Shown piece after piece: positions 11,256 through 37,585 of a stretch of DNA of 64,000 nucleotides; positions within the stretch are counted from its first letter, which is position 1; every line of letters begins with the position of its first letter. Location of the stretch: positions 478,201 through 542,200 of the forward strand of contig JBBHKE010002853.1 of NCBI GenBank assembly GCA_037447655.1. Reading direction: 5' to 3'. The translations under genes and the position numbers were made by a program. Source of the stretch: Zygnema cylindricum. Lineage: Eukaryota; Streptophyta; Zygnematophyceae; Zygnematales; Zygnemataceae. Below the pieces are notes generated by a model. It was given only the letters and a program-made list of their open reading frames with translations. It was not told the origin of the DNA and did not search any database.

Positions 11256-13289
11256 CTTGCATGCCCAATAAACATTCAGATCTGATAACGACGGGCAGTG
11301 TAGTGTACTGTATTGCAGTACCAAGGTCTTTGAACTACTGTACTCCCAAATTCCCCACATTAAGAAACACGACAAAAGTCAACTTCCACATGAAAACGTT
11401 TCACTCTTGCCATAATTGACGAATTGCGAAAATACAAAAGCACCATCCCTCCCAATTTCAGTGTAATGAAATTTGATTACTAGTATAGAGACAAGAAAAT
11501 GTCAGAGCCAGGAAGTAACATGTTTATAAAAATGCCAATGGTAGCCCACGGTTCACTACTTTACATACTATTCGACCTCCCCCTTCCCCTATATCACCAA
11601 AGCACACCGCTATTCCAATGAATGACTGCTCTAAATACTAAATAAACTACTGTAGCTGCCACATCTACCCAAAAAATAAACATTTTTCCCGAGGGACAGA
11701 ATTTCTATGTCCATTTCCCTCTCAACTATTCCATTAAACAAGTTAAAAAAAATGGGTGATATGCACCGTTTTTTATGCAGATAACATAGCAGTACTCTGG
11801 ACAAGAGCTTTCCAGCATCAAAACATATACACCTTTTGTAGTTATCTGTCCTTTAGAGGGAGTTCCTACAATTTTGGACATACAACTCCGTCCCTGTAAT
11901 ATTATATTTTAGCCCCTGGTGCAAGATGGCCCTGGAAGGCTGGTAACGGTACTCTTGATCTTTGTCATCATGAGGATGCTGTTTATGACACCCTGTGATC
12001 CGATTCCACTGACACGGAATCCCTGCGACACAGACAGAGTTTGACCAGCTTAATTACGTTTGTTGTTTTAGTTTGACTTTTATTATTCTATCTTCAAATG
12101 CTTTCGCTTCTTTCTTTCTATTTTTTGTCTTTTTGTTATACATTACGAGATTGTTTTGTAACTATCTCGCTCGGAATTCAAGTCTTTGCGTTTGTGAGTA
12201 TAAACACAGGAAAAATTAACTGAGACAGTTGAATAAAGAATTATTATTGCAATTGCAAAAAAGTTCAGAAACCAGGGACACACCCTAAAGATTCAAAAAA
12301 GTTGAAAAGTAGCTGAAGCTAGAAAAGGTCAAATCTTAAAAGTCAGACAAGTTCATCTTGAATAAGAAAAAACTGGGAAAATGTTGACACTACAGGTACT
12401 TTAAATCTTGAGAAAAATCATTAACAAGCTACACATTCCAAATACGTCAGTCAAGAACATGATTATTACTGAATAGCTTGGAAGTTGAAGAGGGCGAATG
12501 TCGCAAAAGGGAAATGGTATGGCCCACGGGCTGGTGCTGAGTTAATTTGAACAGTTCCAGTCTCCATTGCATCTTATATCATGATGGCTTTGATCAGATC
12601 CTTGGTGAAAACGCAATCCTACAGAATCAGAGGATCATTCGAAAAAAAATAGAAATTATTGCAGTCCAAGTATTGATGCCAACTATTGATCACAAAAATC
12701 AAGATGGGTTACCCATCTATTTCAGACAGTCTTGCATTGCAAACACAAAACTTTCTGATGGATCCCAAATTAATCATCATCCTGAAAAGGATGCGATAAT
12801 GAAAGAAATTTCTTAGGATGCTCCAGACATATACTGAGACTAACGCCAAAATGTAAATTTCACTTCCCACTGCAGTCAATCTGTAAGAACTAAACAGTAC
12901 ACAATCGAAAACAATATGCTTCGAGTCAATCATGTACGCAAGGAACGAATGAAAAATAGCAAGTTCCACAGCAATTATGTATACAACAAAGGCCTTTCTG
13001 GACACTCAGTCCAAATGATTTCATTCAACTAAAAACTGTGGTTTGAACACACGTGTCTTACAGAAAGGCAGGAGGATCAACTGCACGTGAAGGATAAAAC
13101 TGGAATGATTTTAAAAAGCAAACACTTCAGTTCATCTCAGCATCTGACCAGAGCATCTGACAATTCATAAAATAACTCAACGTTCAATTACAAGATTATT
13201 TTTATCTCCTTTTCGAAAGAGAAAACAGCCTGGTCTTTCGATACCTCAGATTCTGTGAATACCCTGCTATGATTTGTTTTAATTACGTT
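11256..13289. other. Gene-free stretch of 2 kb
   Basis: Mostly AT-rich, with no exon I would defend. One short plus-strand stretch near 11925-12040 reads a hydrophobic segment (LVTVLLIFVIMRMLFMTP) but lacks clear splice support. Confidence 0.35.
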
Positions 13290-13530
13290 TTCAAAGTATC
13301 GGAGAGAGAGAGGTCGTCTCTTGATGGAGAATGGAAGCACAGAGAGGACATCCCTGCAGAGCGAAGTCATTGGCATCACAGGGCTGAATGCCTTCCTCTG
13401 GAATCGAAATTCGGATGACCGTACAACGGGACCAAAGGGCTCCTCCCCATGCCACATGCATGTCCGGTCGGACATGGTCGATGAGAAGAGCCCATATGAG
13501 ATAACCGTCCCTCTTGTACACCTGCATAAA
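13290..13530 (-). CDS. Putative coding exon, unidentified
   Basis: After a pyrimidine-rich acceptor (TTTTATGCAG, exon edge about 13526) the minus strand reads VYKRDGYLIWALLIDHVRPD and HVAWGGALWSRCTVIRISIP. This region is GC-richer than its surroundings. Two other frames, one on each strand, are also open, so the true frame is not certain. The longer 240-residue minus ORF that spans it starts inside a TRIM LTR and is not a gene. Confidence 0.25.
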
Positions 13531-13834
13531 ATTAGACTACCAATTAGAAGCCAAAATTGATAAAAAGCTTGCCCTTGATACCCACATCTGGCCTTATTCC
13601 GTGAATAATGCATGACGAACCGAGAACTGCAATTGAGCACGGATCCTCGGATGAAGCTAGTTAGAAACGCCTTCTCGTGACGCGGACTATCTTCATCCGC
13701 ATAGCTCCAATTCCGTTTCAAAACAGCAGAGGGTGCAGAATGTTGACATACGTGAAACGTGCGTTCGATATCCGAAATTGTGGTAAAATCCACACTAAAA
13801 CCTGTATAAAAATGGACCCACCAGCGTAACATCC

Positions 13835-13906
13835 GAGCTGGTGGCACAGTGGTAGTGCGTTCGCAGCTTAAGTGAAAGGTCCCAGGTTCAAATCCTGGCC
13901 GGCTCA
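13835..13906 (+). other. tRNA-like cloverleaf in TRIM LTR1
   Basis: All four arms can be drawn. The acceptor is GAGCTGG/CCGGCTC, D-stem GCAC/GTGC with loop AGTGGTA, anticodon stem TTCGC/GTGAA with loop AGCTTAA, and T-arm CCAGG-TTCAAAT-CCTGG. Box A (TGGCACAGTGG) and box B (GGTTCAAATCC) are intact. Position 33 is G rather than the near-universal U and no CCA is encoded, so it is probably not a translating tRNA. The formal anticodon would be CTT. Confidence 0.85.
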
Positions 13907-14090
13907 TCAATCCCTTTAATGGGATCGTCCATTCTATCCCCCGATTCTATGAATCTTAACATGGTATCGGATGACCGGCTACCTCTCGAGGGGGGGTGTT
14001 CACGCACGTGAAACGTGCGTTCGATATCCGGAATTGTGGTAAAATCCACACTAAAACCTATATAAAAATGAACCCACCAGCGTAACATCC

Positions 14091-14162
14091 GAGCTGTTGG
14101 CACAGTGGTAGTGCGTTCACAGCTTAAGTGAAAGGCCCCAGGTTTAAATCCTGGCCAGCTCA
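14091..14162 (+). other. tRNA-like cloverleaf in TRIM LTR2
   Basis: Same fold as in LTR1. Differences include the anticodon stem TTCAC/GTGAA (a G-T pair becomes A-T) and acceptor changes GAGCTGT/CCAGCTC. The T-loop has TTTAAAT, a box B mismatch. Confidence 0.8.
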
Positions 14163-14222
14163 TCAATCCCTTTAATGGGATCGTCCATTCTATCCCCCGA
14201 TTCTAGGAATCTTAACACAGAA

Positions 14223-14905
14223 GTGCTTGACTAAAGGAGTGGATTCCGAGACCAATGCTGCGTCTTGGCCTCCCATGCAAAGCATGCATTCCGTACATGC
14301 GACAGAGATAGATGGACGGAAGACCAAACAAAACAGATTCTAACAGCAAAAGTTGACATGGAACGATCATACACATTAATCGCCACTGATTTTATCAAGA
14401 CAAGTATGTAGCCTCTTAAACATATGAAGTTAATCAATTTTCACCATGCAGGCAACATACTGATATTACTAGGACTGCAATTTTTCACCCTTGTCACCTC
14501 CTTTTTCTTTTTTTTTGTTCTTATTTACAATTACAAGTGACTAATAAGCACAGGAGTCTGGAAAACCTGTCAAGGACCTTTTAAGAGTGAAAGTGCATAT
14601 GTTGCACAAGGTCCATCCACAATTTTTTTTAAGGCGAATGTATCAAATTATAAATAAAAGGTCTGATCGATAAATTTGCAAACTAAACCACAAAGAACTC
14701 ACATACGAAGTTCACAACATCCAAGCTAAGAAACGGTGAGAAAGCAATATCTCTACGCAGCAAAAAGCTTGCCTGGCAGAGGGTTTGCTGAATGTGTCAG
14801 TCGACGACTTTTGTTTTCCGCGAAATGAATCGTAACGGTTGGCGCCAAAAGTAGGAATATGGCAGTTACCACTGCAGTACATGTACAGTACATTATGGGT
14901 TCGTT
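14223..14905. other. Gene-free stretch
   Basis: No coding exon supported. Sequence just left of the next MITE is rich in GTAC words (ACAGTACATGTACAGTACA near 14870). Confidence 0.35.
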
Positions 14906-15464
14906 CAGTACAGTACACCGCCAATCGTTATTAGCGTGTAAGTTTTTTTAGCGTATAAAAATAATTACCGTGGTGTACGCTATTCAAGAATTTGAAAATT
15001 TTGGAAAAAATCATACATTCTAATTGTTTGGTTGTGGTAATTTGGATCTTTGAAAAAAAAATGTTGGTCGCAAACATGCTTATACTAATATTGGTCTCCG
15101 TACAAAATATGACAAATCGTACACAAATCGTACATTCACACGGTCGAAACGCGGCTGTCGGACGAATATGTGCGAGCGGGATTTTTTACGACCTGGTTTT
15201 TTTTCCTTTTTAGAACGCAAATTCTCATGTGTCCGCTGTTACTAAAACTAATTTATTGTAATTTTTAACTTAAAAAGGTACATTTATGTATGTTCTGACA
15301 CTGACCGTACACCACTCTATTTAAGAGACAACGTACTGAAAATAACCCTAAATAGAATAAAGAAAAAAATAGAATGAACTACACTAATGGAGAATATAAA
15401 AAAAAAAAAGCTGGAGGGAATTAGCGTACACAACGCTAATAACGATTGGCGGTGTACTGTACTG
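14906..15464. mobile_element. MITE with CAGTACAGTACACCGCC ends (559 bp)
   Basis: The left end CAGTACAGTACACCGCCAAT and right end ATTGGCGGTGTACTGTACTG are inverted repeats. They continue inward through CGTTATTAGCG. The interior is AT-rich and non-coding. It is a member of a family whose ends (TACACCG..AATCG..ATTAG) recur at 17460-17966, 46554-46763, 55720-55946 and, as a single end, near 50272. Confidence 0.75.
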
Positions 15465-16290
15465 TATTATCTTATGTAGTATCTTTTGATGGACATCCGT
15501 TCTTTACCAGCAGAAGAATCGCATTAAGAACGAACGGTATGTCCAAAACTTCACCAATTGAATATCCTCGATAATGCGCACTAAATACACCGTACGGTAA
15601 TATTCGCATACCTGGCAAATATTGTACATCATGATTGGATCTCTACCAGGATGCGTACGAATAGAAAAAATATCCGGCGACACTTCCTGAGCCAAAAGAG
15701 TACTTCGTTAACCACTTTGCATTAAATTATTAAGTTCTTTTTTTTCACGTCCGCCCTACATGCCATCTTGCTAATTTTGTCTTCGGCACCTTTTTTTCAA
15801 GACCTTTCAAGGTTTCGTAGGCATTTTTGGCTATTCCCAGGGATTTTAAGGTTTCTTAGGGAATAAGGTTTTTTTTAACTTTTTAGGGTTTTGAAGCCTT
15901 TTAGCTGTACGGCTCCTTTTTTTGTCGTTTCTAGTTTTTTTTGGTGGGAATGGCTTTTTAGGGTACCAACCATCAAAATTACAGGCGGTTGGAAACCTTT
16001 CATACAATTAGGGTTAATCAGGAAATCGCCGTATCGCCGATACAAGATCCAACTGCCATATTGACAAAAGATCGAGACCCCCTCAATATGGAAATTTGAA
16101 AATCATCGATTCCGGTTCAATACACATCACTAAGTCCACATTAATATCTATAAACATATATATTTTAATAATAATATAATAGAACATATATAGAACATGA
16201 CATAATACATATATATTTTCCAAAATTAAACGAAAAAAAAAATAGCAAAAAAGCGTGACAAGATATCACAATCAAAAAGTGAAATCTTAC
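15465..16290. other. Mostly gene-free; one possible 75-bp exon at 15612-15686 (minus)
   Basis: A minus-strand phase-0 stretch (IFSIRTHPGRDPIMMYNICQ) sits between a pyrimidine-tract acceptor (TTTTGGCTCAG) and a donor (CAG then GTATGCG). It is too short to identify and could be chance. The rest, with many T/A runs, shows nothing. Confidence 0.25.
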
Positions 16291-16397
16291 CTTCTCTCAT
16301 TAGGGTTGGGAACCAATTTTCGAAGAAGAGACACCATAACTATGGTGGATGTGAGGTTGTCCAGAATGGAGCTCAGAACGAAGGTGATACCGCCCAC
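16291..16397 (-). CDS. Exon of a NhaD-type Na+/H+ antiporter
   Basis: The 107-bp exon encodes VGGITFVLSSILDNLTSTIV followed by MVSLLRKLVPNPNERR. This is the signature membrane segment of NhaD antiporters (plant NHD1-like, usually chloroplast envelope). There the LDNLT(S/T)TIVMVSLLRKL block precedes the AANAGGAW(S/T)PIGD segment. Splice sites are good: acceptor TATTTTCAG, donor GAGAAG then GTAAGA, starting in phase 0 and ending in phase 2. I found no neighbouring NhaD exon on either side, so the gene has very long introns, is interrupted by the gap at 16409-16418, or is a relic. The exon itself has no stop. Confidence 0.8.
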
Positions 16398-16408
16398 CTG
16401 AAAATAAN

Positions 16409-16418
16409 NNNNNNNNNC
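16409..16418. other. Assembly gap (10 N)
   Basis: Ten N characters 11 bp upstream of the NhaD exon's acceptor. The true size is unknown. Confidence 0.99.
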
Positions 16419-17459
16419 AATTTTATAAATAATTGTGATTCCCATACAGGGGTACATGAACATCGAATCACTTAAATGAAACAAAAAATCGCGCGTAGGC
16501 GGCCTGGGCCAAAAGTTCACAGGGATACACATTTTTGCATTAGTGTTGAATGCAAACACTGTTAACATATGCAGCTGTTATGGACACTGCTAACAGTTGC
16601 AGATGTAAACAGTACAGCGTGCCAAAAAAAACCTTGACGAACACTGCAGCATACAGAATGGCACTGTAACATCTGCATGGCAGAAGATCGGACACGTCAA
16701 AGTACCAACTTCTTATACGATGCCATTTCACATCGAGCGGACAGGAAACGCGAAGGCAAAGCGCATATTCTTCAACCATGAAACTGCACAGGCTAGAAGA
16801 CGGTACGTCTACAATGTCACGGTAAGACATACGACGTCACAAGCAGTTCCAAAAAAAACCGTGCGACATGACAAATGTAGACGTTGACAATCGTCACAGG
16901 TATTGTCGACGTATACAATTGTCACAAACGTAAGTTGTGATTACGTTTTTACACATAGGGACACTTGAAAACCGGGTCCGGCGGATGCGCGCTAAAAAAC
17001 AAAGTAAATTCACTAAGCTACAAGTACATGGGGACATACCCTTAGTGTTAATAAATATTTTAACACTTAAAACATCTTTTATCTTTACACACTTGTCCAA
17101 TTTTCACACGCAGACCGCCAATCGGAAGGTGAGAATCCGGGCTTTCAATTGCAACCGTCAGATCGATAATTCGACAAACATGTATTGAAAAAAAGATTTT
17201 TTAAGTGGCAAAAAAACATTAACACTAAAAGCGATACACGGTGTAGAGTGTGTTCTGTACGTTAACTGCTCGTAAAGCGTACATAAAAAATATCAAATAA
17301 CTGCGTTGACATGCGAAAGCGAGTGGCGTTTAAAACCAGAAAGCGCACTTCAGATATTTATTCTTCTTAGTAATGAACACTAGGGAAATTCGGGGAAATT
17401 GCGTGAACTTGTTCTCACATGTTCAAACGCCGACCATGTGAGTCCTATCCGCCTGTACG
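16419..17459. other. Gene-free; holds an inverted-repeat element shared with 42.0 kb
   Basis: Sequence from about 17035 to 17250 (TTTTAACACTTAAAACATC ... TTTTTTAAGTGGC, ATTAACACTAAAAGCGAT) is related to 42015-42190. Its halves are partly inverted, a small foldback or MITE. No coding exon seen. Confidence 0.5.
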
Positions 17460-17966
17460 GTACACCGTGAATCGTAATTAGAGTAAATTACTCTAATTCG
17501 GTCGCTCGAAATTTTGACTCTCTCACATAAAATAGAGTAAACGATTCTATTTTTTTCATCATTCTATTTAAGGTAAAGTTTAATTAGCGTTTTTAATTCT
17601 GATATAGGTTTGTTTTAAACAGTGTGGAGTACAGACGGTGTCATACCGTGCAAAGTTGTACTTTATTAAGTAAAAAAATACAAATAATGATTTAATACAG
17701 GTCATTATCATGTAATTGCGTTTTAACAAACCACGTAGTGCAAACGTCATAGTGACGATAAATTGTAAGTTTTGCCAAATTCTGTACGAGTACCTTATTT
17801 ACAGTAGAGGATATTAGCGTGCCAAATTAGAGTACTTAAATAAATTATAGTAAACTTCATAGTTGAAAAAGCTCTATCACATAAATTAACGTTAATTACT
17901 CTAATTTTGTTTTTTAGTTTTTGTACTCTAATTTTTTCATTACTCTAATTACGATTCGCGTTGTAC
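17460..17966. mobile_element. MITE with GTACACCGTGAATCG ends (507 bp)
   Basis: Left GTACACCGTGAATCGTAATT and right AATTACGATTCGCGTTGTAC are inverted repeats with a few mismatches, both continuing into AGAGT(A). The interior is AT-rich and non-coding. Confidence 0.7.
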
Positions 17967-19642
17967 TTCCCGAGTCATTCTCCTCCAGTCCTATGTACGA
18001 CACGCGAGATTAAACAATCACATTTTATTCACGATCCACCCTAATTTGCCTTGAGGCCTGATGAGTTGAATAGCTGATGATTTTCAAACTCATAGGACCA
18101 AGAAAATACTTCAAACTATTATAGTTTATGTTTTGACTTGAGTGGACGCGGAGATTCCACGCAATCCTCATATCTACCGCAATCAATGCTTGGGGCAGTT
18201 TTTTTGAAAAATACAAATCAATGAATTAAATGAGCTTGAAAGCTCAAATCAGTAAATTAAATGAATGAGCAATTTCGCTGAAAAGCGGCCTTCACGTCTT
18301 AAACCATACTTTTCAATGAAATTCCACAAACACAGTTAACATATGTCCACATGACAACGACACTCCTATTCTGTATCACCGAAAGGCACCAACGTACGAT
18401 GAGAATCGTTTGAGTCGTCAATTTGCAATGCGTGACGCGACCGAAGCTTGGCGTGCAGGGGATTGTGACTGCAAGCCTATATTTTACTGGTATACCTAGG
18501 AATCAGTTAATCACAATTAATAGAGAGACTACGAGGACGGGAAAAGCTTTGAACGGTGAGATTTGTCTGTCTAATAGTTAGTGCGTCAAGCCTACCTACA
18601 ACTCCTTGTTTTTCCATGCTATAACTTAATCTCCTATTGAGTTTGTTACGAAATTTTCATACAAATCTCTACACAATTCAGGCTGTCGATTAGGTAAACT
18701 AGATTTTCATTGTTTTAAGAAACGAAACAATATGACATATGATCAAAGGTGACGATTTTGGGAGTAAAATAAAATTTAAAAGATAATAAATCTCAAATAA
18801 ATCATTGTGTGAGACGTAGGAATGTCAAAGCTGCATTTCAAACTTTTCTGAGATTGTTGCCCAACTGTTTTTCCTTCTTTGGACGTACTTACAAAACAGT
18901 TTTTTACTGCAAAAAAAATAACCTCTTCCTCTCCCTCACCCTCCCCCTCCCCCTCCTCATTCCCAAGTATTGTCTGTGCGTTTGCTAAAAAGGTTGACAA
19001 GAAAGTACAAAAAAATGGGCTCCTCTTCTACATGGATCGATTTTACCCATATCACCTCAAAACATCAAACTCTTTTTATTTTTATGCTTTACTTCTCTCT
19101 TAGCGACTTGTCACCGGTTTCTGAAAGAGATAAGAATCAACCGAGAAATACCCTGACGCTGAAAGAAATTGAGCCACCTGAAAAGAAAGATTTGGTTTGC
19201 TACTGACATTAATCACCAATACTTGTGTTTTATCATTACGACATTTTTCCTTTTTGTATTTGTGTTTAAGTATGTGTTTTTTTTTGTTTTTCCTTTGAGT
19301 TTCTCAAAGTAGATGCAACGGCTATCATACATACCTTAGGACATCAGATTTTACTTCATTTTTTTTCCGTTGTTGTCTCGTTTTTGGGATTTCTACTAGA
19401 GTGCCCAAAATGCCTCTTTCTCGTGCGATGTTCAAGTTTTGACTCAATTTTCTCCTCCGAAAGTAGGAATTTTGGCAGAGCCCTACAAACCCACTAAATT
19501 TGGTGAGGTCTTAATGGAAATTAAGCTGTGAATTTGCTTATGTTTTGTATCTAGAGGGAGGAGAGGAGAAGTAGAGGTGGAGTACCGGACAGAGTTGAGG
19601 ACTTAAGGTTCACTAACATTTTTCATTTTCATATTTTGGCAG
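17967..19642. other. Gene-free or undetermined stretch
   Basis: Contains a short CT-rich run (18925-18960). A plus-strand open piece near 19103-19204 (SERDKNQPRNTLTLKEIEPP, then a stop) follows a TCTCTCTTAG acceptor-like site and could be a terminal exon. Support is weak. Confidence 0.25.
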
Positions 19643-19793
19643 TTTTATCATACACTTGTGAAGGTGAAAATGCAAAAAATGTTAACCTTTCGTTGTTTTC
19701 CGAAAGATCTGAGAATGAAACAGCCACCGGTGGTAACTTTTCTTTCACATACAAAATTCCCGGTCAGGGTCAGATGAAAGCTTTGGCCTGCCC
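19643..19793 (+). CDS. Possible exon of a secreted-type protein
   Basis: After an acceptor (ATATTTTGGCAG) the plus strand reads SYTCEGENAKNVNLSLFSE and NETATGGNFSFTYKIPGQGQ, ending near CCC then GTAGGA. N-glycosylation-like NLS, NET and NFS sites and Cys residues suggest an extracellular domain. The frame meets TAG if the exon runs on to the alternative donor at 19842. Not recognised. It might pair with the Cys-rich exon at 24759-25009, with TRIM copies in the intron. Confidence 0.25.
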
Positions 19794-20337
19794 GTAGGAA
19801 TTTGCTAGCCAGGATGGCTGCAAATATCCAAATAGTACACAGGTTAGTTAAAAAAAAAACTTATGCATAGAAATTTGCACATTTTCCATAATAATAAAGA
19901 TTGACCAGAAACATAGATAAGAGCTGATTTGAAATATATTTCTCCTCATATAAGGAGATTTTCTTCAACAACTCTTTTATGGTCGGTGAAATCTAAAAGT
20001 ACTATTCAACTTTGAACTTTGAAGATCTTTAATTTGCTAACTTTCTTTTGAACACTTTTTCTGGTCCAGCTTTCACTTTGTATGTAATGCGGGTAATTTT
20101 AAAAGCTTAAAATGCTCAAATATTGAAAAGAAAGAGATGTTTAATCTTGAAAAACTACTTGTCGAAGTAGTTAAAAAACAAAAAGAAAAACCTGCCATGT
20201 AGCATGAAATAGAGTGGATGCAGGAGTTCATGTTTCCAATGGCGGTGACTTACGTTCGGCGGGATATTCAGAACATGTCGAGCAAAGAGAGAGGACAATA
20301 TTTTGTCGCCATCAAAACACTTAAAAACTGTTGCACC
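19794..20337. other. Gene-free stretch
   Basis: AT-rich sequence without supported features up to the TRIM array. Confidence 0.35.
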
Positions 20338-21177
20338 TGTTGACATACGTGAAACGTGCGCTCGATATCCAAAATTGTGGTAAATATCCACACTAAAACC
20401 TATATAAAATTTGACCCACCAACGTAACATCTAAGCTTGTGGCACATTGGTAGCGTGTTTGCAGCTTAAGTGAAAGGTCCCAGGTTCAAATCCTGGCCGG
20501 CTCATCAATCCTTTTATTGGGAGCGTCCATTCTATCCCCCGATTCTATGAATCTTAACATGGTATCAGAGCCAAGGGGATCAGGTTTACATGGACAATTA
20601 TGACCGGCTACCTCTCGAGAGGGGGTTAATCGGAGACAGGGGGATTAGGTTTACATAGACAATTATGACCGGCTACCTCTCGAGGGGGGGTGTTGACGTA
20701 CGTGAAACGTGCGCTCAATATCGAGAATTGTGGTAAATATCCACACTAAAACCTATAAAAAATTGGACCCACAAGCTTAACATCTGAGCTGGTGGCATAG
20801 TGGTAGTACGTTCGCAACTTAAGTGAAAGGTCCCAGGTTCAAATCCTGGCCAATTCATCAATCCTTTTATTGGGATCATCCATTTTATCCTCCGATTCTA
20901 GGAATCTTAACATGGTATCGGAGCCAGAGGGATCAGGTTTACATGGACAATTACGACCGGGCTACTGATGGAAGACGTACGCGAACGGATATAATTGTGG
21001 TAAATATCCACACTAAAACCTATAAAAAATTGAACCTACCAGCGTAACATCTGAGCTGGTGGCACAGTGGTAGTGCTTCGCAGCTTAAGTGAAAGGTCCC
21101 AGGTTCAAATCCTGGCCGGCCCATCTATCCATTTATTGGGATCGTCATTCTATCTCCCGATTCTAAAAATTTTAACA
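20338..21177 (+). mobile_element. TRIM tandem array: LTR-internal-LTR-internal-LTR
   Basis: LTR 20338-20559 (222 bp) is followed by PBS TGGTATCAGAGCCA (20560-20573). This is a better match to the initiator-Met 3' end than in the 13.7-kb copy. The 131-bp internal region holds a duplicated block of about 60 bp (ATGACCGGCTACCTCTCGAG twice). A purine tract precedes LTR 20691-20912. A second PBS (20913) and a shortened internal part lead into a third LTR whose first part is rearranged and which ends TTTTAACA at 21177, again with PBS. tRNA-like cores lie at 20433-20504, 20786-20857 and 21053-21123. Unequal recombination between elements explains the array. Confidence 0.85.
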
Positions 21178-21226
21178 TGGTATCGGAGCAAGCTGCAGTA
21201 GGTTGTTTCCTGCAAGACCAAGAGAT

Positions 21227-21379
21227 AAGCCCATTTCCCAAGAAAAAACACGAGTCAGTAAGATTCCTAGAATCGACAAGCCCATTTCCCAAGAAAAAAC
21301 ACGAGCCAGTAAGATTCCTAGAATCGACACGCCCATTTCCTAAGAAAAAACACGAGCCAGTAAGATTCCTAGAATCGCG
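21227..21379. repeat. 51-bp tandem repeat, three copies
   Basis: Units start at 21227, 21278 and 21329 (CCCATTTCC then AAGAAAAAACACGAG). Each ends TAAGATTCCTAGAATCG, the reverse complement of the TRIM LTR tail. The repeat is 17 codons long and is open in frames on both strands, but no gene is indicated. Confidence 0.85.
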
Positions 21380-21488
21380 GGATAGAATGGACGATCCCAA
21401 TAAAGGGATTGATGAGCCGGCCAAGAATTGATTTAGTGTGGATATTTACCACAATTTCGGATATTAAGCGCACGTTTCACGTACGTCA
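21361..21488 (-). mobile_element. Inverted, internally deleted TRIM LTR
   Basis: Reading minus, it starts TGACGTACGTGAAACGTGC (from 21488) and ends at the LTR tail near 21361. The segment between the TATA-like part and the CCGGCTCATCAATCC part is lost, so the tRNA-like core is mostly missing. It faces the array at 20338-21177. Confidence 0.75.
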
Positions 21489-22985
21489 TCACCGCTGAAG
21501 AAGGGCGAAAGCAATTCGGTCCAGGGTGGGTCGATACTGTTACCGTACACTTTTCTCCTATGTTTGTGTTTGGTTTAATGCTGCGCTATTCTAGTATTCT
21601 CATGAATCAGGGCTCATTTGCCAAAAATTGATGTTATGGTTTATGTTTCAAATGCTTGTTTCCGAATTCGTGTTGTTTGACGAAATTGAGGATAATCTTC
21701 CATCCATTTGTTACATTTTTTATTTTCGTTCACTCAACGTTAGTTTTATTAAGTAAAGTCATCTCAAAAGTGTTAAACCATCCAAGGTTTACCCTCCCAG
21801 CTTCATTATGTCCAAGAAATTCTTACCTTTGCCTTGTTTTTATCTCCACAACATTAACAATTTTATCTTTTTCTTTCAAAGATTCAATATCCTATCAAAA
21901 CATGACTTTTGCCTTTTCAAAATCGTGGATATTTTGCCGCTTTCCCTCCCCAGGTTCGCGAGCTACGACGACATTGCAGGCCTCCACATGGCGGCCGTGC
22001 GGGTTCGCGAGTGGCACTGTGACATGGGTCACCTTGGACCCGCCCTCACTACTTTCCATAGCGCCATCGTACGACTTTTCGAAAAATCGATTCAAGTTCG
22101 AATACCATGCAAAAGAACTTCTCATACCGTACAGTATACCGTGTCTAAGCTGTCCTGTACCATACTGTACCATCAAAATATCATAGAAGTTACAACTTAG
22201 TACGTAACATATGAAAGCTATAGGTCAGATGTAATCACCCATTTGCTGAAACCGGCATACAAGCTACACTACCCATCGCTATTAAAGTTAATAACACTAA
22301 CTTGGTCGCGATATCTTCAGGGTGAGAATCATAACATAGAGTGGACGTGAAGGTATGCAGTTGTCATCCCTTCTTTTGGGTCCTAAGATTATTCAATTAG
22401 ACATGGAAAATTTTATCTTCCCCATCAAATATTACTAGTCCAGCCTCTCTAATAGTGTTGGACGGTCTATCTCATGCTGCTAAGTCATTGCACAACAGTG
22501 AACAAACAATGTTGTAAAAGTAACAGTACACCTTTACAATAAATTAAGTATTGTTGATTTGTTCCTAATCTATTCACATCATGATTTGTGGTTGATTTGT
22601 TTGTTTTGTCAAAAAAAATCAAAATAATTGACATGCGGTGGATCCCTCCCTTGCCTCGCCTTATTGGGGTTACCTTTGAGATGGCGGTCTCCTAAGTTCT
22701 GACCAGAGATTCATATGGTCTGACAGCTATTATGGAAACATACGCGGCGATCCAGATCACAACCATCAAGGTGAGGCGAAACCCATCGTCGTATTATTAT
22801 GCACTCACCACTATTCGGGTTTATTTCATAACAACCACAACCATACTATGAATGCACCATTTCTAGAGTTTATTTCGTATTTAAATTCTGACGGCCATGA
22901 TCATATTATAAATAAACCATTAATGAGGTTTATTTTGCATGTAGACTTTATCAACCAATTTAGAATGGATTTTACGAGAATAAAG
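21489..22985. other. No firm gene; one possible exon near 21954-22070 (plus)
   Basis: A GC-richer piece after TTTCCCTCCCCAG reads FASYDDIAGLHMAAVRVREW in the frame that is open upstream. It might be an exon of an unidentified gene. The flanks are AT-rich without further support. Confidence 0.25.
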
Positions 22986-23295
22986 CTACAATAACTTTGT
23001 ACCCAAAATTTTGTTGGCTTTCGAAACATTCATTCCAAGGAAAGCTTTTGATATTTTATTCTCAGATTGTTGAAACATAAAGACCTGGCTTTCTTCAGCT
23101 AGACTTGTTAAACTGATTTTGTTTGACAACACCTGTTTACATGAACAACAATGATAAACGGACAGTTTGCAAATTGGACCGTCGCCTTTGGAGATAAGGC
23201 GACCATAACATGACAAAATACTTGGGGATCTCTTAGACCAAGCAACATTATTAATCCATATGGCTAGTTTTGCTCGTAAGGCCACACTATCACCA
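22986..23295 (-). CDS. Putative terminal exon, unidentified
   Basis: A 100-residue minus-strand open frame of normal complexity (RAKLAIWINNVAWSKRSPS, CKLSVYHCCSCKQ, SQVFMFQQSENKISK) follows a TTTACAG acceptor-like site and ends at a TAG at about 22986. I do not recognise it; it could be a decayed gene. No neighbouring exon identified. Confidence 0.25.
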
Positions 23296-23552
23296 AACCC
23301 TGTAAACAATTGACTCTAGAAACGCACAAAAGCACTGCTTAAGCACTGCTCACAATAGTTAATAAGTGGTCCATGAATTCATCTATAATGGTGAACAAAA
23401 TGTACTTCTTTTTCAATTAGAGATATCTATGTTGTACAAATCATGTGATAGTGTGCAATGCAGTTACACTAGAAGAATTAAGTTGAAATTCGTGTGAGTG
23501 GGAAATAGTATTTCATTTTTAAAACTGCTGTCATATCCTTCACAATGGTGAA

Positions 23553-24168
23553 TTGTTGACGTACGAAAAGTGTACTGCTCGATTACCGGAATTGTGGTAA
23601 TATCCACACTAAAACCTATATAAAATTGGACCCACCAGCGTAACATCTGAGCTGGCGGTACAGTGGGTAGTACATTCACAGCTAAAGACATTCACAGCTA
23701 AAGTGAAAGGTCCCAGGTTCAAATCCTGGCCGGCTCATCAATCCCTTTATTGGGATCGTCCATTGTATCCCCCGATTCTAGGAATCTTAACATGGTATCG
23801 GAGTACGTAAAACGTGCTGATTGATACCCGGAATTGTGGTAAAATCCACACTAAAACCTATATAAAATTGGACCCACCAGCATAACATCTGAGCTGGTGG
23901 TACAGTGGTTAGTACATTTGATTGATACCCGGAATTGTGGTAAAATCCACACTAAAACCTATATAAAATTGGACCCACCAGCATAACATCTGAGCTGGTG
24001 GTACAGTGGTTAGTACATTCACAGCTAAAGTGAAAGGTCCCAGGACTGGCCGGCTCATCAATCCCTTTATTGGGATCGTCCATTCTATCCCCCGATTCTA
24101 GGAATCTGGCTCATCAATCCCTTTATTGGGATCGTCCATTCTATCCCCCGATTCTAGGAATCTTAACA
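23553..24168 (+). mobile_element. Rearranged TRIM copies
   Basis: One LTR (23553-23792, ending CTTAACA then TGGTATCGGAG) carries an 18-bp duplication within the tRNA-like anticodon arm (ATTCACAGCTAAAG repeated). It runs straight into two further partial LTRs, the second truncated in the T-arm (CCCAGG-ACTGG), with the tail block CTCATCAATCCC..GAATCT duplicated before 24168. No matching target duplication was found. These copies use D-stem GTAC/GTAC instead of GCAC/GTGC. Confidence 0.8.
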
Positions 24169-29462: not shown

Positions 29463-30499
29463 TGCAATTCTGTGTCCTCCATTGGACTACAGAATACAGG
29501 AAGCCTCTAGATAGTATTTAACTAACCCACTTTAAGCCACAACCACTTCTGCCTCAGAAGGCAAACTGATAATTTGACTGCACCCCTGTGTAGCCTGGAC
29601 TCCCCTGAGTCCGTAGCAAAAAGAATCACTGAAAACGGCCAACCAGGCGATAAGTTATGAGGCAGCAAAAATGCCAATTTGTACAGACTCTCAAAGGGAG
29701 AGATGACTATCTACCTAAATTTTCTAAGTCCTGATTCTCTCTAATAACTCCTATCTACTGAAGTACGGACCAATCAGATTACTGTATCGTACACAAAAGT
29801 ACTACTGCCGATGTACCTTTTGTACGGCCTATGTACGACAAGGCTATTAAGTGGACGCGTGTCCGCTTTTCACTCGTCCGTACATTCCTCGGAATTCCTA
29901 TGACCGAATGTCATCTCTCCACGTGGCTCCAGGTCATGCCACGTCACAAAACGCCAAAATGACCACTCCGGGATTTCGGCGATGATGTGCGCCGTTGGAT
30001 TTTGTGCCAAACGCAATCTTAGCCGTAATAAATGCTTGCGTGACATTTGTTCCGATGTCGATATAAAATGCGTAGTATCCGTTTCGAATTAGCGTCGTAC
30101 GATGTACTTTATATAACTGAATCTATGTACGCCGTAAACAGTTCTAGTTAAATGAATTTTAGTCACGCAAACAAAATATATATCTATCACATACCATCGT
30201 ACTTAGCATTGGTCCTAGTCTATTAGGATAAAGCTGACCGCTACCGGTCAACTTGACGAACCGCAGGTACCGGGATCAAACCTCTGGTCCGTCAAGTATA
30301 TTTTTAGTAACCTACTAAAAATAGCTGTCTGTTGAACTAAGGCAGCCATGGATCAACCTCTCTCTCTTACCTTCAGTGACTACAACAAGTATGGGAGTTA
30401 GAGAGCGGAGGTGGAGGCAGGCTGCCCGTCTTTTTCTTTCCTTTTTATAAAGACATATTTAAACCTAGAAAATACTCTAGAAATCTATAAATTTCAACA
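29463..30499 (-). repeat. Copia element B 3' LTR (1037 bp)
   Basis: On the minus strand it begins TGTTGAAATTTATAG at 30499, right after the purine tract AAAATAAGGGGAG (30500-30512), and ends ACAGAATTGCA at 29463. The left flank ATTGC (29458-29462) would be the target duplication. An antisense box-B-like GGATCAAACC is at 30273-30282. It is followed by GGTCCGTCAA, which pairs with TTGACGAACC just upstream. Confidence 0.85.
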
Positions 30500-30512
30500 C
30501 TCCCCTTATTTT

Positions 30513-33500
30513 CTAGTCTAATTTTAACTTTTCTTTCAACCCGCATTTTTCCCGACAATATTTTAGTTTAGGAGAGGGCACAGGTTTGGTCATCATGTCA
30601 GCCACCATTTCTTCATCAAGTCTATAAACAAGATTTAAAATTTTATTTTCAACTTTTTCTCTTACGAAGCTCAATCTTATGTCCATATGTTTTGCTTTGA
30701 AATGGTGTTTTGGATTGGCTGCAATTGCAATTGCAGCTTGGTTATCGCAAAATATTTCATGCACTCCCTCTTTCATAAATCCCAGTTCTTGTAACAATGA
30801 TTTCACCCACATTAGTTCTTTTACAGCAGAACAAGACGCCATATACTCAGCCTCCATAGTAGACTGAGCAACCACTTTTTGTTGCTTACTGCTCCAACAG
30901 CAAGCACCTTCCCCCACATACAAAACATATCCAGAAGTGCATCGTCTCATAGGTGCATCCCCATAACTGGCATCACTCCAAGTAGTGATGTCAGTGTGCT
31001 CCCCTCCCAAATGCAACCATAACTCTCTAGTTCCCACCAGATATCTCATGACTCTCTTGGCTGCCTCCCAATCCCTCTTCCTAGGATCATTAAGACTCCT
31101 ACTGAGTACACCAACTGCCGCCGCTATGTCCGGCCTGGTACAATTCATAAAATAGATTAAGCTTCCTACGACCTGTCTATAAGGGATAGACTTCATGAAC
31201 TCTCTCTCCTCTGGAATCATCTGATCGTCTAAGATCATCACTCCTCCTTCTACACTCCCATCACTTACTTTTTTCAAGTCCATGGGAGTGGTACAACTGT
31301 TAGCATTTTCCATCTGGAATTTCTCAAGCATATTACCTATTGCTTCTTTCTGAGTAAGTCTGATAATCTTCTTCCCCCTATCTCTCTCCATTTGGATCCC
31401 CAAAATATATTTTGCCTCCCCTAAATCCTTCATATCAAATCTGCCCCTAAGATCTTTCTTTAGCCTATTGATATTCTCCAAAGACTAACTTAACACAAGC
31501 AGATCATCCACATAAATTGCAATAAAAATGACACCATTCTCATCTTCAAACATATAGATAGAATGGTCAGAGCTGATCCGGATGTATCCCAGATCGGTGA
31601 GAAACTCATCTAGTTTCTTATTCCACTGTCGCGGAGCCTGTTTTAGTCCATATAAGGATTTTATGAGCCTGCACACTTTGCTCTCTTCTCCTTCTTCCAC
31701 AAACCCCTCGGGTTGCCTCATAAAAATTTCATCCTCTAACTCACCATTAAGAAAAGCAGTCTTAATGTCCATCTGGTGAATTTCCATGTCTTCCGCTGCT
31801 GCCAGACTAAGGAGAATCCTTACCGATGGGAACCGAACAACTGGAGCAAAGGTCTCCTCATAGTCAATCCCCTCTTTTTGGGTGAACCCCTTTGCTACCA
31901 ATCGAGCCTTATACCTCTCAATTGTATTATCTGGGTTCAGTTTTAGTTTAAATACCCATTTACATCCAATAGGTTTTCTGTCTGGAGGGCAATCCGCTAG
32001 TTCCCAAGTATTTGCTTCCATGATAGAAGCCATCTCATCATTTATGGCTCTAATCCATCTTTCTTTCTCTGGACTATTCACTGCCTCTAAGTAAGACTGA
32101 GGCTCATCTGGGTGAGATAGCTTAGTTACCTTATGAGCAGCTTGTTTTTCCTGTATCCTTTTGCTGCTCCTCCTTCCTCCCTCAAACTCCGAAGCTGGAA
32201 TGGATGGAAGTCTTGGATTTCTTCTTATTGTCTCATCGGCTCCCCTGTCCATGGAAACCAGTTCTTGTCCCGCTTCTTCTATCTCCTCGAAGTCCATGGG
32301 AGTATGCGAGGTTTCTGGTGAGTCTCCTGTATCTTTGATCTCCCCTGAACCTGTAATCATGGTGTCACCTATGTCCCTTTCGGGGACGACCGAGTTCTCC
32401 TCACTTTCGGACTCAAATCTGATTCTTATCTTCTTTGTATATTTGAAGGGGTCAAATGACTTTCCTTCATCCATGACAACTAAGTGTTTGACCAGAATGA
32501 TATCTTTCTTTGCTAAGTCATAGACTCTATATCCCTTAACATCCTCATCATATCCCACAAAGTATCCTGGTTTTCCCTTAGCATCTAGTTTCCAGTTTTT
32601 CCTATCCGTGTCAAGACTGTAAACTTGGCTACCAAATACTTTAAGGTGTGAGATATCTGGTTTTCTTCCAACCCATCTCTCATATGGTGTCACTCCCTTT
32701 ACAGCTGAGGTAAGGACTCTATTTTTAATGTAGTTGGCACAATTCATTGCCTCTGCCCAAAATCTCTTTCCTATTTTCTTGTCTGCCAACATACTGCATG
32801 CACTATCTCCTAGTGTTCTATTCAACCTCTCAGCTACCCCATTTTGTTCCGGGTTATATGGTACGGTTTTCTGGTGTTGCACTCCCTCATCTCTCAGATA
32901 TTCCTCAAACTGGTTAGAGGTATATTCCCCCCCATTATCACTCCTTATCCTCTTAATAGGGGTTTCATGCAATTTCTCACTCCATGCTTTATATTCTTTG
33001 AAGCAAGTGGATGCTTCAGACTTATTTTTCAGAAAGTAGACTCTAGAGTATCTAGACCAATCATCAGTTATTGTCATCATGAATCTCTTTCCTCCAACCG
33101 AAGGTACTTTTGCAGGTCCCCAAATATCTGTGTGGACCAAATCTAACACTTTCTCACCTCTATATGTGGCGGCTTTGGGAAAGGGAAGTCTGTGAGCCTT
33201 ACCTTGAGCACAACCACTACAATCATCCATCATTTCATTATCCCCAAACTCAATGCCATCTACTACCCCAAGCTTTTTCATTTCCCTTAACCTATCAAAG
33301 TGCACATGCCCCAACCGCTTATGCCAAATCATCACCTTAGGAACACCAACATAGTAAGCATTCTTCTTTTCATTACTCAAGTTAAGCCTAAACATTCCTT
33401 GGCTACCCTTATCTGCTGTGAAGTAAACTTCATTCCCATACTTAGCTGTAAAGACTCCCTTTCTGGTGAAGGTATCAAACTCTTTGTCATCTAACACAGA

Positions 33501-34650
33501 CGTAGAGACAAGATTTTTACTCAGCTGAGGAATGTAAAGTACATCTGAGAATGTAAGTATAGAGGTCTTACCCTCTACTAAGACTTTTAGATCTACTGAT
33601 CCCACTAGATCTGTAGTAACCACTCTCCCATCCCCATACTCTATCTCTACAGTAGGAATCTTTCGTAGCTTAGTGAAGAGTTCTTTATCACGACACATAT
33701 GCATGGATGCACCTGAGTCGATGATCCATCCTTCCTGTGGAGCTTCCTGAATTGCTCCAAGGGCACACTTCTGCCTCCGAGGGATCTCCTTCTCCTTCAG
33801 ACTCTCGTCAAGAAGAAGCTCCCCATCATCCTCAGATGACTCATCCTCGGTTTCTCCTGAAACTTTTGTAACCACAAGTGCCTTTTTCTTCCCTCCGGAA
33901 GAACCCCCTCCACGGTTTTCTTGGAGCCTCAGCTCCGACAACTTGACACAATCTGCAATAAAGTGTCCCGGCTTTTTGCAAAAATGACAAAGACCCTTTG
34001 GGGGCCTCTGTCCCCCAGAATTATCTCTTTCCCCTCTATAAGGTTTCTTCGGATCCTTCCCCCATCGGTCCCCTCCTGCTGCTAGAGCTTGAATGCTCTT
34101 TCCTCCTCTCCTAATCTCCATTGTGTTTTCCTGCACAAGTATCATCCTGACTACTGTGTTCCATTTCCATGAACTATCAGGCATTCCCTGTACTCGGTAC
34201 ACTATGTTTTCGAACTCATCTGGTAATTTCATGATAAGGGTGTTCACTTTCATTTTCATTGTACCTGTCCACCCAGCACTTTCCATTTCCATATACAAAC
34301 AAGAAAGATCATTACAGTAATCTAACATCTTTCCTCCTTTGTAAGTGTAACTCAATAGTTTTTGCTCAGCCAACTGGAGCTCCTGAATAGTTCCAGCTCT
34401 ATAAATCTCCACCAAACTTTCCCACAATTCCTTGGCCTTGTAAATGTGAAGATGAGGAGTGGCCAAACCTTGAGTGAGGTGCCTCAAAATGAAGTTCTTG
34501 GCAGCCATGTTTACATCCTCCCACATTTGAGTATCGTTCTCCACGGTCTTCAAGGTCGCCGTTCCCGATACTGTGGCAATAGGAGTGAGGGGTGTCTCCT
34601 TCCCTTTCTCCTTTTCGGACACACTGCTGTCCCCATCATCTGCCTCCTCC
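30513..34650 (-). pseudogene. Copia element B gag-pol polyprotein, one stop from open
   Basis: A single minus-strand frame of about 1,370 codons (34622 to 30513) contains the domains in Ty1/copia order. Gag has a CCHC knuckle (CHFCKKPGHFIADC, near 33970). Protease reads IDSGASMHMC (near 33720), then GAG-pre-integrase (MIWHKRLGHVHFDRL). The integrase core includes DIWGPAKVPSVGGKRF and RSDNGGEYTS; RT has YVDDLLVLS; RNase H has WSDASYGDAP and QSTMEAEYMAS. The sole interruption is TAG at 31485-31487, where sister copies have a Lys codon. The 5' end is lost: homology stops near 34650 within the gag leader and no 5' LTR follows. It is the best-preserved element here and inserted into element A. Confidence 0.93.
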
Positions 34651-34878
34651 GCGCGATCCGCCGTACATTTTCAAATGATTGTTCGCGCCACTCACACGTC
34701 ACTTTAATTTTGCTCGTACACTAACTCCCCCGAATCGCAAATCTATTCAAAACTCCACAGTACATTATGTAAAATATATACGCACGAAACGTCGCGTGCG
34801 CACCAAATTTCATGTACGCACGAAACTAAATCTTCAAAAACAACACTTTTCAGCGTACCGCAAATTCAGCGTGCAGGC
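34651..34878. other. Unassigned junction sequence
   Basis: Links the truncated 5' end of copia B to the plus-strand copia piece. GTAC-containing AT-rich sequence with nothing recognisable. Confidence 0.3.
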
Positions 34879-36514
34879 GTGAGCGTATTTGCGTATGGCG
34901 ACTCCACAATAAAAACTGTACAATCAGATGGTGTACAAATAGGCGAAGGAGAAGTCACCGATTTTATGCATAGTCGTTTAATATGGCGTCGACCGAAAGC
35001 ACACCCAAATTCCGTTGGTATTATTTCGCAAATATCCGAGTTGAAAGGCAATTTAACCTTGTGGCACCACTGTATGTGCCACACATCCGAGGGGAGTTTA
35101 CGACGCATGATTAAAAATGGAAGTGTAACGGGATTGGACTTCGCGTCGGGAGAGAAAATTAACGGGTGCGAGGGATGTATCAAGGGAAGACAAATTCGAA
35201 AGCCACATCCGGCTAAGGATCCAATGCATCATTCTAAGCATTTGCTTGATCTTGTGCATATTGATTTATGTGGGGACGTAAAACCGGAGACAATTGGAGG
35301 AAACAAATATATTATGGAGGTGGTGGATGACTTTTCTCGCTTCACGTGGGTAATATTACTTAAACACAAATCGGAAGCATTTTTACGCTTTCAAGAATGG
35401 CATGTAATGGCCGAGAGGCAATGTGAAATAAAATTAAAATCCATACGATCGGATAATGGAGGGGAATTTCTTGCTTTTGATCCTTATTGCAAAGAGTGGG
35501 GAATTTCTCACCAATATACCGCATCTTACTCACCGGAATCTAATGGCATTGCCAAGAGGAAAAATCGTACGCTTCAAGAAATGGAACGATCCATGGTACA
35601 CGGATCCGGGAGGAGTATTCATTTATGGGGCGATGCAATTTTAACAGCGAATTATATTTGCAATCGGAGGATTACATCGATTTCTGGTGATAAAACTCCG
35701 TATTAGTTGTATGGGCGAAAGCCTACCCTACACCATATTCGGATTTGGGGATGCCGTGCGTCGATTTATATTCAATCGCAAAAGAGAAAAGGTAAGTTTG
35801 CATCGAGAGGAAGAGGGGGAAGAGGACACGAAAGGGCCGGGAGATCTCCTTCCCAATCCGGATATTCAGATCTGACCAAAATTGCCTGTTTCCAATGCGG
35901 CAAACTTGGTCATATGGCGGCTTCTTGCTCAGATAAGGAGCGCCAATGTCACTTCTGCCGGAAATGGGGTCATATAAGCCCCCTATGTTACTCGAAGGCT
36001 GAAAATGGAGGTGGCTGTGGAAGAGGAGATCGCGGCGGTAAAGGCGGCGGTGGAAGAGGAGATCGCCGCGGTAGAGGCTACGGCGGCGGCCGATACATTG
36101 GGCGCGGTGGCAGTCTTCTTGGCGGCCGCGGTGGCCGCAGAGGTCGCCATGGGAGAGGAGGAGGACATTTTATGGGCGACGATCAATTTGAAGGAGGAGG
36201 CGAAGGCGCGCAAATATTTTCCGCCCTTAACCTTTCGCTTGATATTTTTGTAGGTGTTACGCGATAAGAAAATGAGTGGATAATCGATTATGGTGCGTGA
36301 CACCACGTATGTACTAATGCGTCGCTATTTGATTATTTTTGCGAACTCACTGTACCAAAAGAAATCATTGTCGCAAGTGGACAAGTAATTTCAATAAGTA
36401 AAGTAGGTACTGTACGTTTGGACTTACCTATTTTGGATGCAAGTGGCATGGAAAAAGTGACGCAAACCCAACTAACAAATGTTTTGTACCTACCTGAAGG
36501 TTCAGTGAACCTTT
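34879..36514 (+). pseudogene. Circularly permuted copia fragment (IN then gag-PR)
   Basis: The piece starts in the region downstream of protease (SVFAYGDSTIKTVQSDG). It continues through GAG-pre-integrase (LWHHCMCHTSEGSLRRM) and integrase (DLVHIDLCGDV, RSDNGGEF, SPESNGIAKRKNRT) to GRKPTLHHIRIWGCRAS. It then passes without a frame change into a gag tail with Arg/Gly repeats and two CCHC knuckles (CFQCGKLGHMAASC, CHFCRKWGHISPLC). A protease start (WIIDYGA, normally DSGA) follows, ending at LPEGSVNLF near 36514. Stops at 35704 and in the protease kill it. The end of the second part would join the start of the first in a normal element, hence a permuted order. Confidence 0.8.
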
Positions 36515-36612
36515 TTGTTGTTCTTTGGTCTAAAATAGACCGCAGAAGCCACCCAAACTATCATGCAAAAAGCTAAGCAAAAATAGGTCGACGAACAATC
36601 ATTTGAAATGCA
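36511..36612. repeat. 100-bp segment shared with 25583-25684
   Basis: TTGGTCTAAAATAGACCGCA and AAACTATCATGCAAAAA occur in both places with few differences. In both the segment lies near copia LTR material. It includes the small palindrome GGTCTAAAATAGACC. Confidence 0.75.
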
Positions 36613-36801
36613 CCTACTAAAAATAGCTGTCTGTTGAACTAAGGCAGCCATGGATCAACCTCTCTCTCTTACCTTCAGTGACTACAACAAGTATGGGAGT
36701 TAGAGAGCGGAGGTGGAGGCAGAGCTGCCCGTCTTTTTCTTTCCTTTTTATAAAGACATATTTAAACCTAGAAAATACTCTAGAAATCTATAAATTTCAA
36801 C
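36612..36801 (-). repeat. Copia B-type LTR tip (190 bp)
   Basis: Nearly identical to 30313-30499, ending exactly at the LTR terminus TTTCAACA. Its first part is cut off at the shared 100-bp segment. Confidence 0.85.
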
Positions 36802-37585
36802 ACCCTTGAGTCGATAGCAAAAATAATCTCTGAATTTGCTCCCTTGAGAAGTAATTTATGGAGGGTCAAAGTTGACCTTTTGTACAGAGGCTCTCTTGGA
36901 GAGAGGGTCCTATCTTCTAAATTTTTCTAAATCCTATCTCTCTCTAAAACTCTATCTACACAAGTACGGCACTAATCAAAAAACTGTATCATACAAAAAT
37001 GTACACGTGCCGGTGTGCTTTCTCTACGGCCATTGTACAACATGGCCAACTAACCAACCCATGTCATATCTGGATTCGTTCCTGAAATCTCCCAAGATGC
37101 CGTAATCCAATGTTGTTGTGCCACGTGTTAATCGAAGTGGCGGTGACCAAAAACCGCCAAAATCCTATTCCGCGATCTCGGCGTCTTTTTCAGCCGTCCA
37201 ATCAAACCAATTTTTAATCATATCCGTCATAAATTGTTGCGCGATATTTGTTTCACAGTCGAAACAAAATGCTCGATATCCATTACGCATTCGTACTATA
37301 CTCCGAACTTTTACAAACCTGTATCCATGCGCGTTGTCTATAGTTACAGTTAAATGAAATTGTTCACCCGTAACAGTTTAAATATTTGTCAAACCCTATA
37401 TGTCTTAGCACCGATCCTAGACTATAGGATAAAGCTACCGGCTACTTAGAACTGAAGGACGGCATGTACCAGGATCAAATCCTAGATCCGTCAGGTATAT
37501 TTCGGTAAATCCACCAAAATATACCATATGTCTCTCTACCTCATATAAGTAGCATAGGCAGTCATGGCTCCAGCTTCCGCTGGTG
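36802..37585 (-). repeat. Truncated copia LTR of the same superfamily
   Basis: Aligns with the middle part of the LTRs at 26.2-27.2 and 51.8-52.8 kb (GGAGGGTCAAAGTTGACC, CCACGTGTTAATCGAAGTGG). It contains antisense GGATCAAATCC at 37472-37482. Both LTR ends are missing. Confidence 0.75.

Follow-up and report, generated by a model that had tools for sequence, protein, structure and literature searches.

A probable Helenus-type miniature retroelement with a tRNA-like unit in its long terminal repeats in Zygnema cylindricum

In our study, a stretch of 64 kb from Zygnema cylindricum (assembly GCA_037447655.1, contig JBBHKE010002853.1, positions 478,201 to 542,200 of the forward strand; called the window here, and numbered from its own first letter in all coordinates below) was found to contain a short element, element A, and two related arrays, B and C, in which a tRNA-like unit lies inside the long terminal repeats (LTRs). 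Together they probably represent a non-autonomous LTR element, a terminal-repeat retrotransposon in miniature (TRIM), of the Helenus type, with the tRNA-derived part as a fixed constituent of the LTR, with a putative role of that part as a promoter for RNA polymerase III (Pol III) and with presumed mobilisation in trans by a Copia-type element. TRIMs bearing a tRNA-derived LTR sequence were described, and their class named Helenus (TRIMp3), by Kojima (2024; PMC10886601). The preliminary description of this DNA had proposed a TRIM with a tRNA-like unit as an LTR constituent, and the Rfam matches, the BLAST comparison of the LTRs, the alignment of seven LTR copies (A5, A3, B1, B2, B3, C1 and C3) and a target-site duplication (TSD) all support this proposal.

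Element A (13741–14217, forward strand) is the intact copy and is 477 bp long. It contained a 5' LTR at 13741–13961, found by BLAST and alignment, and a 3' LTR at 13997–14217, found by BLAST. Both LTRs are 221 bp long, have TGTT...AACA ends and are 94.6% identical, with 12 differences of which 9 are transitions. In the 5' LTR the tRNA-like unit was present at 13835–13906, its boxes A and B lying at 13842 and 13885, respectively, and in the 3' LTR at 14091–14162; a TATA-like box, read in the sequence and putative in its role, was found at 13805–13812, about 30 nt upstream of the unit. The 35-bp interior (13962–13996, from a motif search) contained a remnant of a primer-binding site (PBS), in which TGGTATC is kept, followed by a G-rich purine tract at its end; compared with array B, it is devoid of the middle stretch. 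The element is flanked by a perfect 5-bp TSD, CAGAA (13736–13740 and 14218–14222, from comparison of the flanks), which was absent from the preliminary description. Element A was therefore inserted as one piece that already had the tRNA-like part in each LTR. A mechanically called open reading frame (ORF) on the minus strand, 13188–13910, overlaps the 5' LTR.

The whole window was scanned with the Rfam tRNA model RF00005, which has a gathering threshold of 29 bits. Five matches were found, all of them in these LTRs: 56.3 and 48.2 bits in the 5' and 3' LTRs of element A, respectively, with E-values of 1.9e-9 and 3.1e-7 for the window, which are far beyond chance, and 42.2, 41.3 and 30.5 bits in array B. 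Ten LTR pieces were present in total. Seven of them span the place of the 72-nt unit and all seven carry it; of the other three, one ends inside the unit, one is an LTR 3' end only and one is inverted and lacks most of the unit. Running a tRNA model on the LTR, as the preliminary description had advised, thus gave scores above the threshold in five of the seven spanning copies. The two copies below it were C1, with a duplication in the anticodon arm, and C3, with a deleted T loop, and array C gave no match to RF00005 at E ≤ 0.5. A search of both strands of the window for generic box A and box B patterns at tRNA spacing gave three sites only, 13842, 20793 and 21060, all on the forward strand. 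The GGTTC of box B is conserved in five of the seven copies, with GGTTT in A3 and a deletion in C3. Of the three loci for which a complete 72-nt cloverleaf with boxes A and B had been described, element A and array B match the tRNA model, but array C does not, and box B of C3 is lost there.

The clusters at 20338–21491 and 23554–24168 are rearranged arrays of the LTR of element A. Array B consists of two successive pairs of LTR and interior, a truncated LTR, another PBS and finally an inverted LTR fragment; apart from that fragment, its features are on the forward strand and were found by BLAST, with a motif search for the interiors. The first LTR (20338–20559, 222 bp) contained a tRNA-like unit at 20433–20504 (30.5 bits) and the second (20691–20912, 222 bp) a unit at 20786–20857 (42.2 bits), whereas the third (20993–21177), with a unit at 21053–21123 (41.3 bits), lacks its first 35 bp. 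Primer sites were present after all three LTRs. The first interior (20560–20690) contained a PBS, a tandem duplication and a purine tract, the second (20913–20992) a PBS before it runs into the truncated LTR, and another PBS follows the third LTR at 21178. The site at 20560 reads TGGTATCAGAGC, which we take to be the complement of the 3' end of a plant-type initiator tRNA, in 12 of 12 letters; with its purine tract, the first interior gave the clearest combination of PBS and polypurine tract (PPT) between LTRs. The inverted fragment (21491–21361, minus strand, BLAST) matches LTR positions 1–59 and 148–218 only; lacking positions 60–147, it is without most of the tRNA-like unit. Between the third LTR and this fragment, a unit of about 50 bp is repeated in tandem some three times at 21220–21380, each repeat ending like a reversed LTR 3' end.

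Array C, also on the forward strand, is more damaged than array B. Its first LTR (23554–23792, BLAST and alignment) is 239 bp long and has a short duplicated stretch in the anticodon arm. Its PBS, at 23793, abuts a truncated second LTR (23804–23909, BLAST) that ends inside the tRNA-like unit, with no purine tract between them. A further LTR with the T loop deleted and box B lost (23924–24107, BLAST and alignment) is followed by a repeated LTR 3' end at about 24108–24168, which has an approximate start and was read in the sequence, being unlisted by BLAST. No TSD was found around array B or around array C at the two boundaries tried for each. The three loci had been presented as alike, with LTRs of about 221 bp, an initiator-Met PBS and a purine tract. 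The length stands for element A and, at 222 bp, for the two full LTRs of array B, but not for the third LTR of array B or for the rearranged array C. The PBS is complete at 20560 in array B and its sequence is present in array C, whereas element A kept only 9 of 12 letters of the initiator motif. The purine tract was found in element A and before the second LTR of array B, but not in array C.

Most of the Helenus structural features that were tested are present in the element, with box A fitting in part. In common with Helenus as given by Kojima (2024; PMC10886601), it is a TRIM of less than 1000 bp that lacks mobilisation proteins of its own, and it has a tRNA-derived sequence in both LTRs, with boxes A and B, and a PBS and PPT in a short interior; the interiors of array B are open for at most about 32 codons. 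The TSD of Helenus is reported there as 4 bp in animals and 5 bp in fungi and plants, and the 5-bp TSD of element A is like that of the plant and fungal members. The Helenus box A motif is TRGCY, with YGG; element A contained TGGC and TGG, but an A instead of the final Y. Tandem arrays are mentioned there for one other TRIM family, LTR-11_DR. Helenus-1_SMo, the sole plant family listed, differs in size from element A: its LTR measures 120 bp instead of 221 bp and its interior 85 bp instead of 35 bp. Element A is therefore not Helenus-1_SMo. The preliminary description knew of no TRIM whose LTR contains a whole tRNA-like unit, but the class had already been named by Kojima (2024; PMC10886601), so that this novelty does not hold. 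In the open-licence literature, judged by title and start of abstract, no further report of tRNA-bearing TRIMs was found among the matches listed. The family itself is apparently undescribed within Helenus, the described Repbase families not having been compared letter by letter, and would be an addition to a class for which the table of Kojima has one plant species.

Other known systems share fewer of these features. Cassandra is likewise a TRIM with a Pol III promoter derived from a small RNA in its LTR, and its tandem arrays are, by title, the subject of PMC7215508. However, the LTR part of Cassandra is derived from 5S rRNA, whereas all five Rfam matches in the window were tRNA and no 5S rRNA match was found in it. 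Ajax of nemerteans (Kojima, 2024; PMC10886601) is a TRIM with a small-RNA-derived LTR part and a 5-bp TSD, but this part is 5S-derived and partial.

The most likely reading is that the tRNA-like unit serves as a Pol III promoter and that the TRIM is mobilised in trans by a Copia element. The unit would recruit Pol III factors; from a start site in the 5' LTR immediately before it, Pol III would transcribe the element into the 3' LTR and give an RNA with terminal repeats. We consider a read-through scheme like that of Cassandra the most likely one; there, as summarised by Kojima (2024; PMC10886601), the transcript begins within the 5S-derived segment of the 5' LTR and terminates within its counterpart in the 3' LTR. 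Transcription by Pol III from within the LTR is plausible, and Pol III promotion of Helenus was itself proposed, without testing, in the same paper. The order of TATA box, tRNA-like unit, two small hairpins and LTR end is constant across the aligned copies.

Several observations weigh against this reading. No run of four or more T nucleotides was found inside element A or array C. In array B, T4 runs were present at 20512, 20865, 20883 and 21170, of which the first two lie 8 nt after the tRNA-like part and could equally end the transcript within the 5' LTR. The exact box A and box B patterns are restricted to three of the seven copies, and the TATA box, some 30 nt ahead of the unit, could position RNA polymerase II (Pol II). 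The unit showed no extra conservation over the rest of the LTR in column statistics of the seven copies. The pairwise difference was 0.107 in the unit (157/1464 letter pairs), 0.089 in the LTR before the TATA box (86/962), 0.121 between the TATA box and the unit (81/672) and 0.081 in the LTR after the unit (91/1119); box A gave 0.111 (28/252) and only box B was lower, at 0.058 (11/189). This conservation test is weak because the copies are decayed. Lastly, no Copia element in the window shares the primer site of the TRIM at up to two mismatches.

Some of these observations argue for a serious rival, which we consider unlikely on balance: a Helenus-type TRIM with Pol II transcribing its genomic RNA from the LTR TATA box, the unit being a relic or a structured R region at the 5' end of the RNA. 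A TATA-like box at this distance from the unit in the aligned copies, the missing T runs of element A and array C and a unit conserved no better than its surroundings all speak for it. Against it, strict boxes A and B at tRNA spacing have been kept in three of seven decayed copies and the tRNA model is passed by five of seven. The TATA box is also compatible with Pol III. Plant tRNA genes often have TATA-like boxes at such a place, so that the box does not exclude transcription by Pol III. If the family is large, it could be used to test how a tRNA promoter yields a retrotransposable RNA without an obvious terminator.

A further scheme combines both promoters: the LTR would be a hybrid of TATA box and boxes A and B, and an RNA switch, in which a leader arm upstream of the unit masks the cloverleaf from tRNA-processing enzymes. 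If true, such a switch would permit the use of a tRNA promoter without the genomic RNA being cut as a tRNA; as a whole, the scheme is very unlikely. The leader arm can pair with the 5' acceptor strand of the unit, all 8 pairs being possible in A5, B3 and C3, 7 of 8 in A3, B2 and C1 and 6 of 8 in B1. For A5, B2 and C3 the best predicted fold includes this leader hairpin, whereas other folds were predicted for A3, B1, B3 and C1. With the leader included, the canonical cloverleaf was the lowest-energy fold in none of the seven copies, C1 keeping the acceptor stem with the other arms rearranged. Folded alone, the units of A5 and A3 gave a cloverleaf and those of B1, B2 and B3 did not; with the leader held single-stranded, none was formed in C1 or C3. 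No pair of the leader hairpin was changed on both sides among the seven related copies. A change on both sides, which favours the cloverleaf, was found in the D-stem, where LTR positions 105 and 117 pair as C-G in A but as T-A in C1 and C3, probably through one shared event. The leader arm as a switch is thus a lead, drawn from predicted folds of seven related copies.

A different origin of the unit, in which a tRNA-derived short interspersed element (SINE) entered one LTR of one recent element and spread by local duplication only, is highly improbable. The three loci lie within 10.5 kb, and arrays B and C show local duplication, which speaks for this origin. However, element A is bounded by a 5-bp TSD of its own and carries the unit in each LTR, and was thus integrated with it, and the unit is present in all seven copies spanning its place at three separate loci. 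The element as a whole resembles tRNA-derived SINEs in having a tRNA-like part with boxes A and B, but SINEs are devoid of LTRs, PBS and PPT and depend on the machinery of long interspersed elements and target-primed reverse transcription; the LTRs, the purine tract and the 5-bp TSD rule out this identity. The LTR was also compared with other collections. Exact LTR patterns gave no match in viral contigs or prokaryote genome contigs, and blastn for distant matches gave none in plasmids or phages; these blanks say little because the collections are not meant for eukaryotes.

Genuine tRNA-Lys genes beside repeats can practically be dismissed: ARAGORN called four units tRNA-Lys (ctt) and the best Rfam score reached 56.3 bits, but the base before the anticodon is never T in the seven copies, the apparent anticodon is not constant, being CTT in A and B and CTA in C, and the units sit inside LTRs with shared flanks in the alignment. 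The base before the anticodon (position 33) is known as an invariant T in real tRNAs; it was G in six of the seven copies and A in one, so the unit is not a tRNA gene. An intact cloverleaf, as a functional tRNA needs, is broken in both of the array C copies that span the unit. According to Kojima (2024; PMC10886601), few such units could be functional tRNAs. We infer that the unit is tRNA-derived and acts as a promoter and not as a tRNA, and the four ARAGORN calls, being parts of LTRs, are a caution for annotators.

For the reverse transcription of the TRIM, the initiator-Met tRNA would act as primer at the PBS, and the enzymes of an autonomous, probably Copia-type, element would complete the insertion in trans. 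A role of the tRNA fold as a priming device, considered in the preliminary description, is not favoured because the primer site fits the presumed initiator tRNA 3' end. A second reason is that in Helenus, as reported by Kojima (2024; PMC10886601), the tRNA-like part is not complementary to the PBS. According to the same paper, Helenus is mobilised by a Copia or Gypsy element that shares its PBS or interior. Mobilisation by Copia is suggested here by the 5-bp TSD, a length also found in Copia and in the Helenus elements of plants and fungi, together with Kojima's account of the fungal Helenus. Copia-type domains were found in 5 of 10 ORFs of the window that were scanned. Part of a Copia polyprotein had a best relative at 63% identity among 120 listed of 6634 matches. 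The PBS motif at up to two mismatches was found at four sites in the window, all of them in arrays B and C and none in element A, and two translated Copia gag regions of the window gave no match to the TRIM interior. The first interior of array B (20560–20690) encodes MDNYDRLPLE behind the PBS, DNYDRLPLE occurring twice, once after Met. As a remnant of a Copia gag start this peptide is not convincing, a loose form of it being found in the first 80 residues of 3 of 134 proteins, with one near the N-terminus (P0130).

Further repeats were observed in the window. At 30310–36803, a Copia region on the minus strand, with pieces of Copia on the plus strand inside it, lies between two direct repeats of about 192 bp that are 99.5% identical; this appears to be a nested insertion of recent date. 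A lone stretch like the 3' half of a tRNA (box B followed by an acceptor-like strand) was found at 1620–1655, with a T5 run soon after, and is possibly a SINE or tRNA relic; shortly after it, at 1690–1831, lies a repeat shared with Copia LTR-like repeats. An RCC1-like ORF of the window gave 14 hits in a search for relatives. At 45132–49033, pieces of an RCC1-repeat protein were found in three minus-strand ORFs, with long stretches rich in simple sequence between them.

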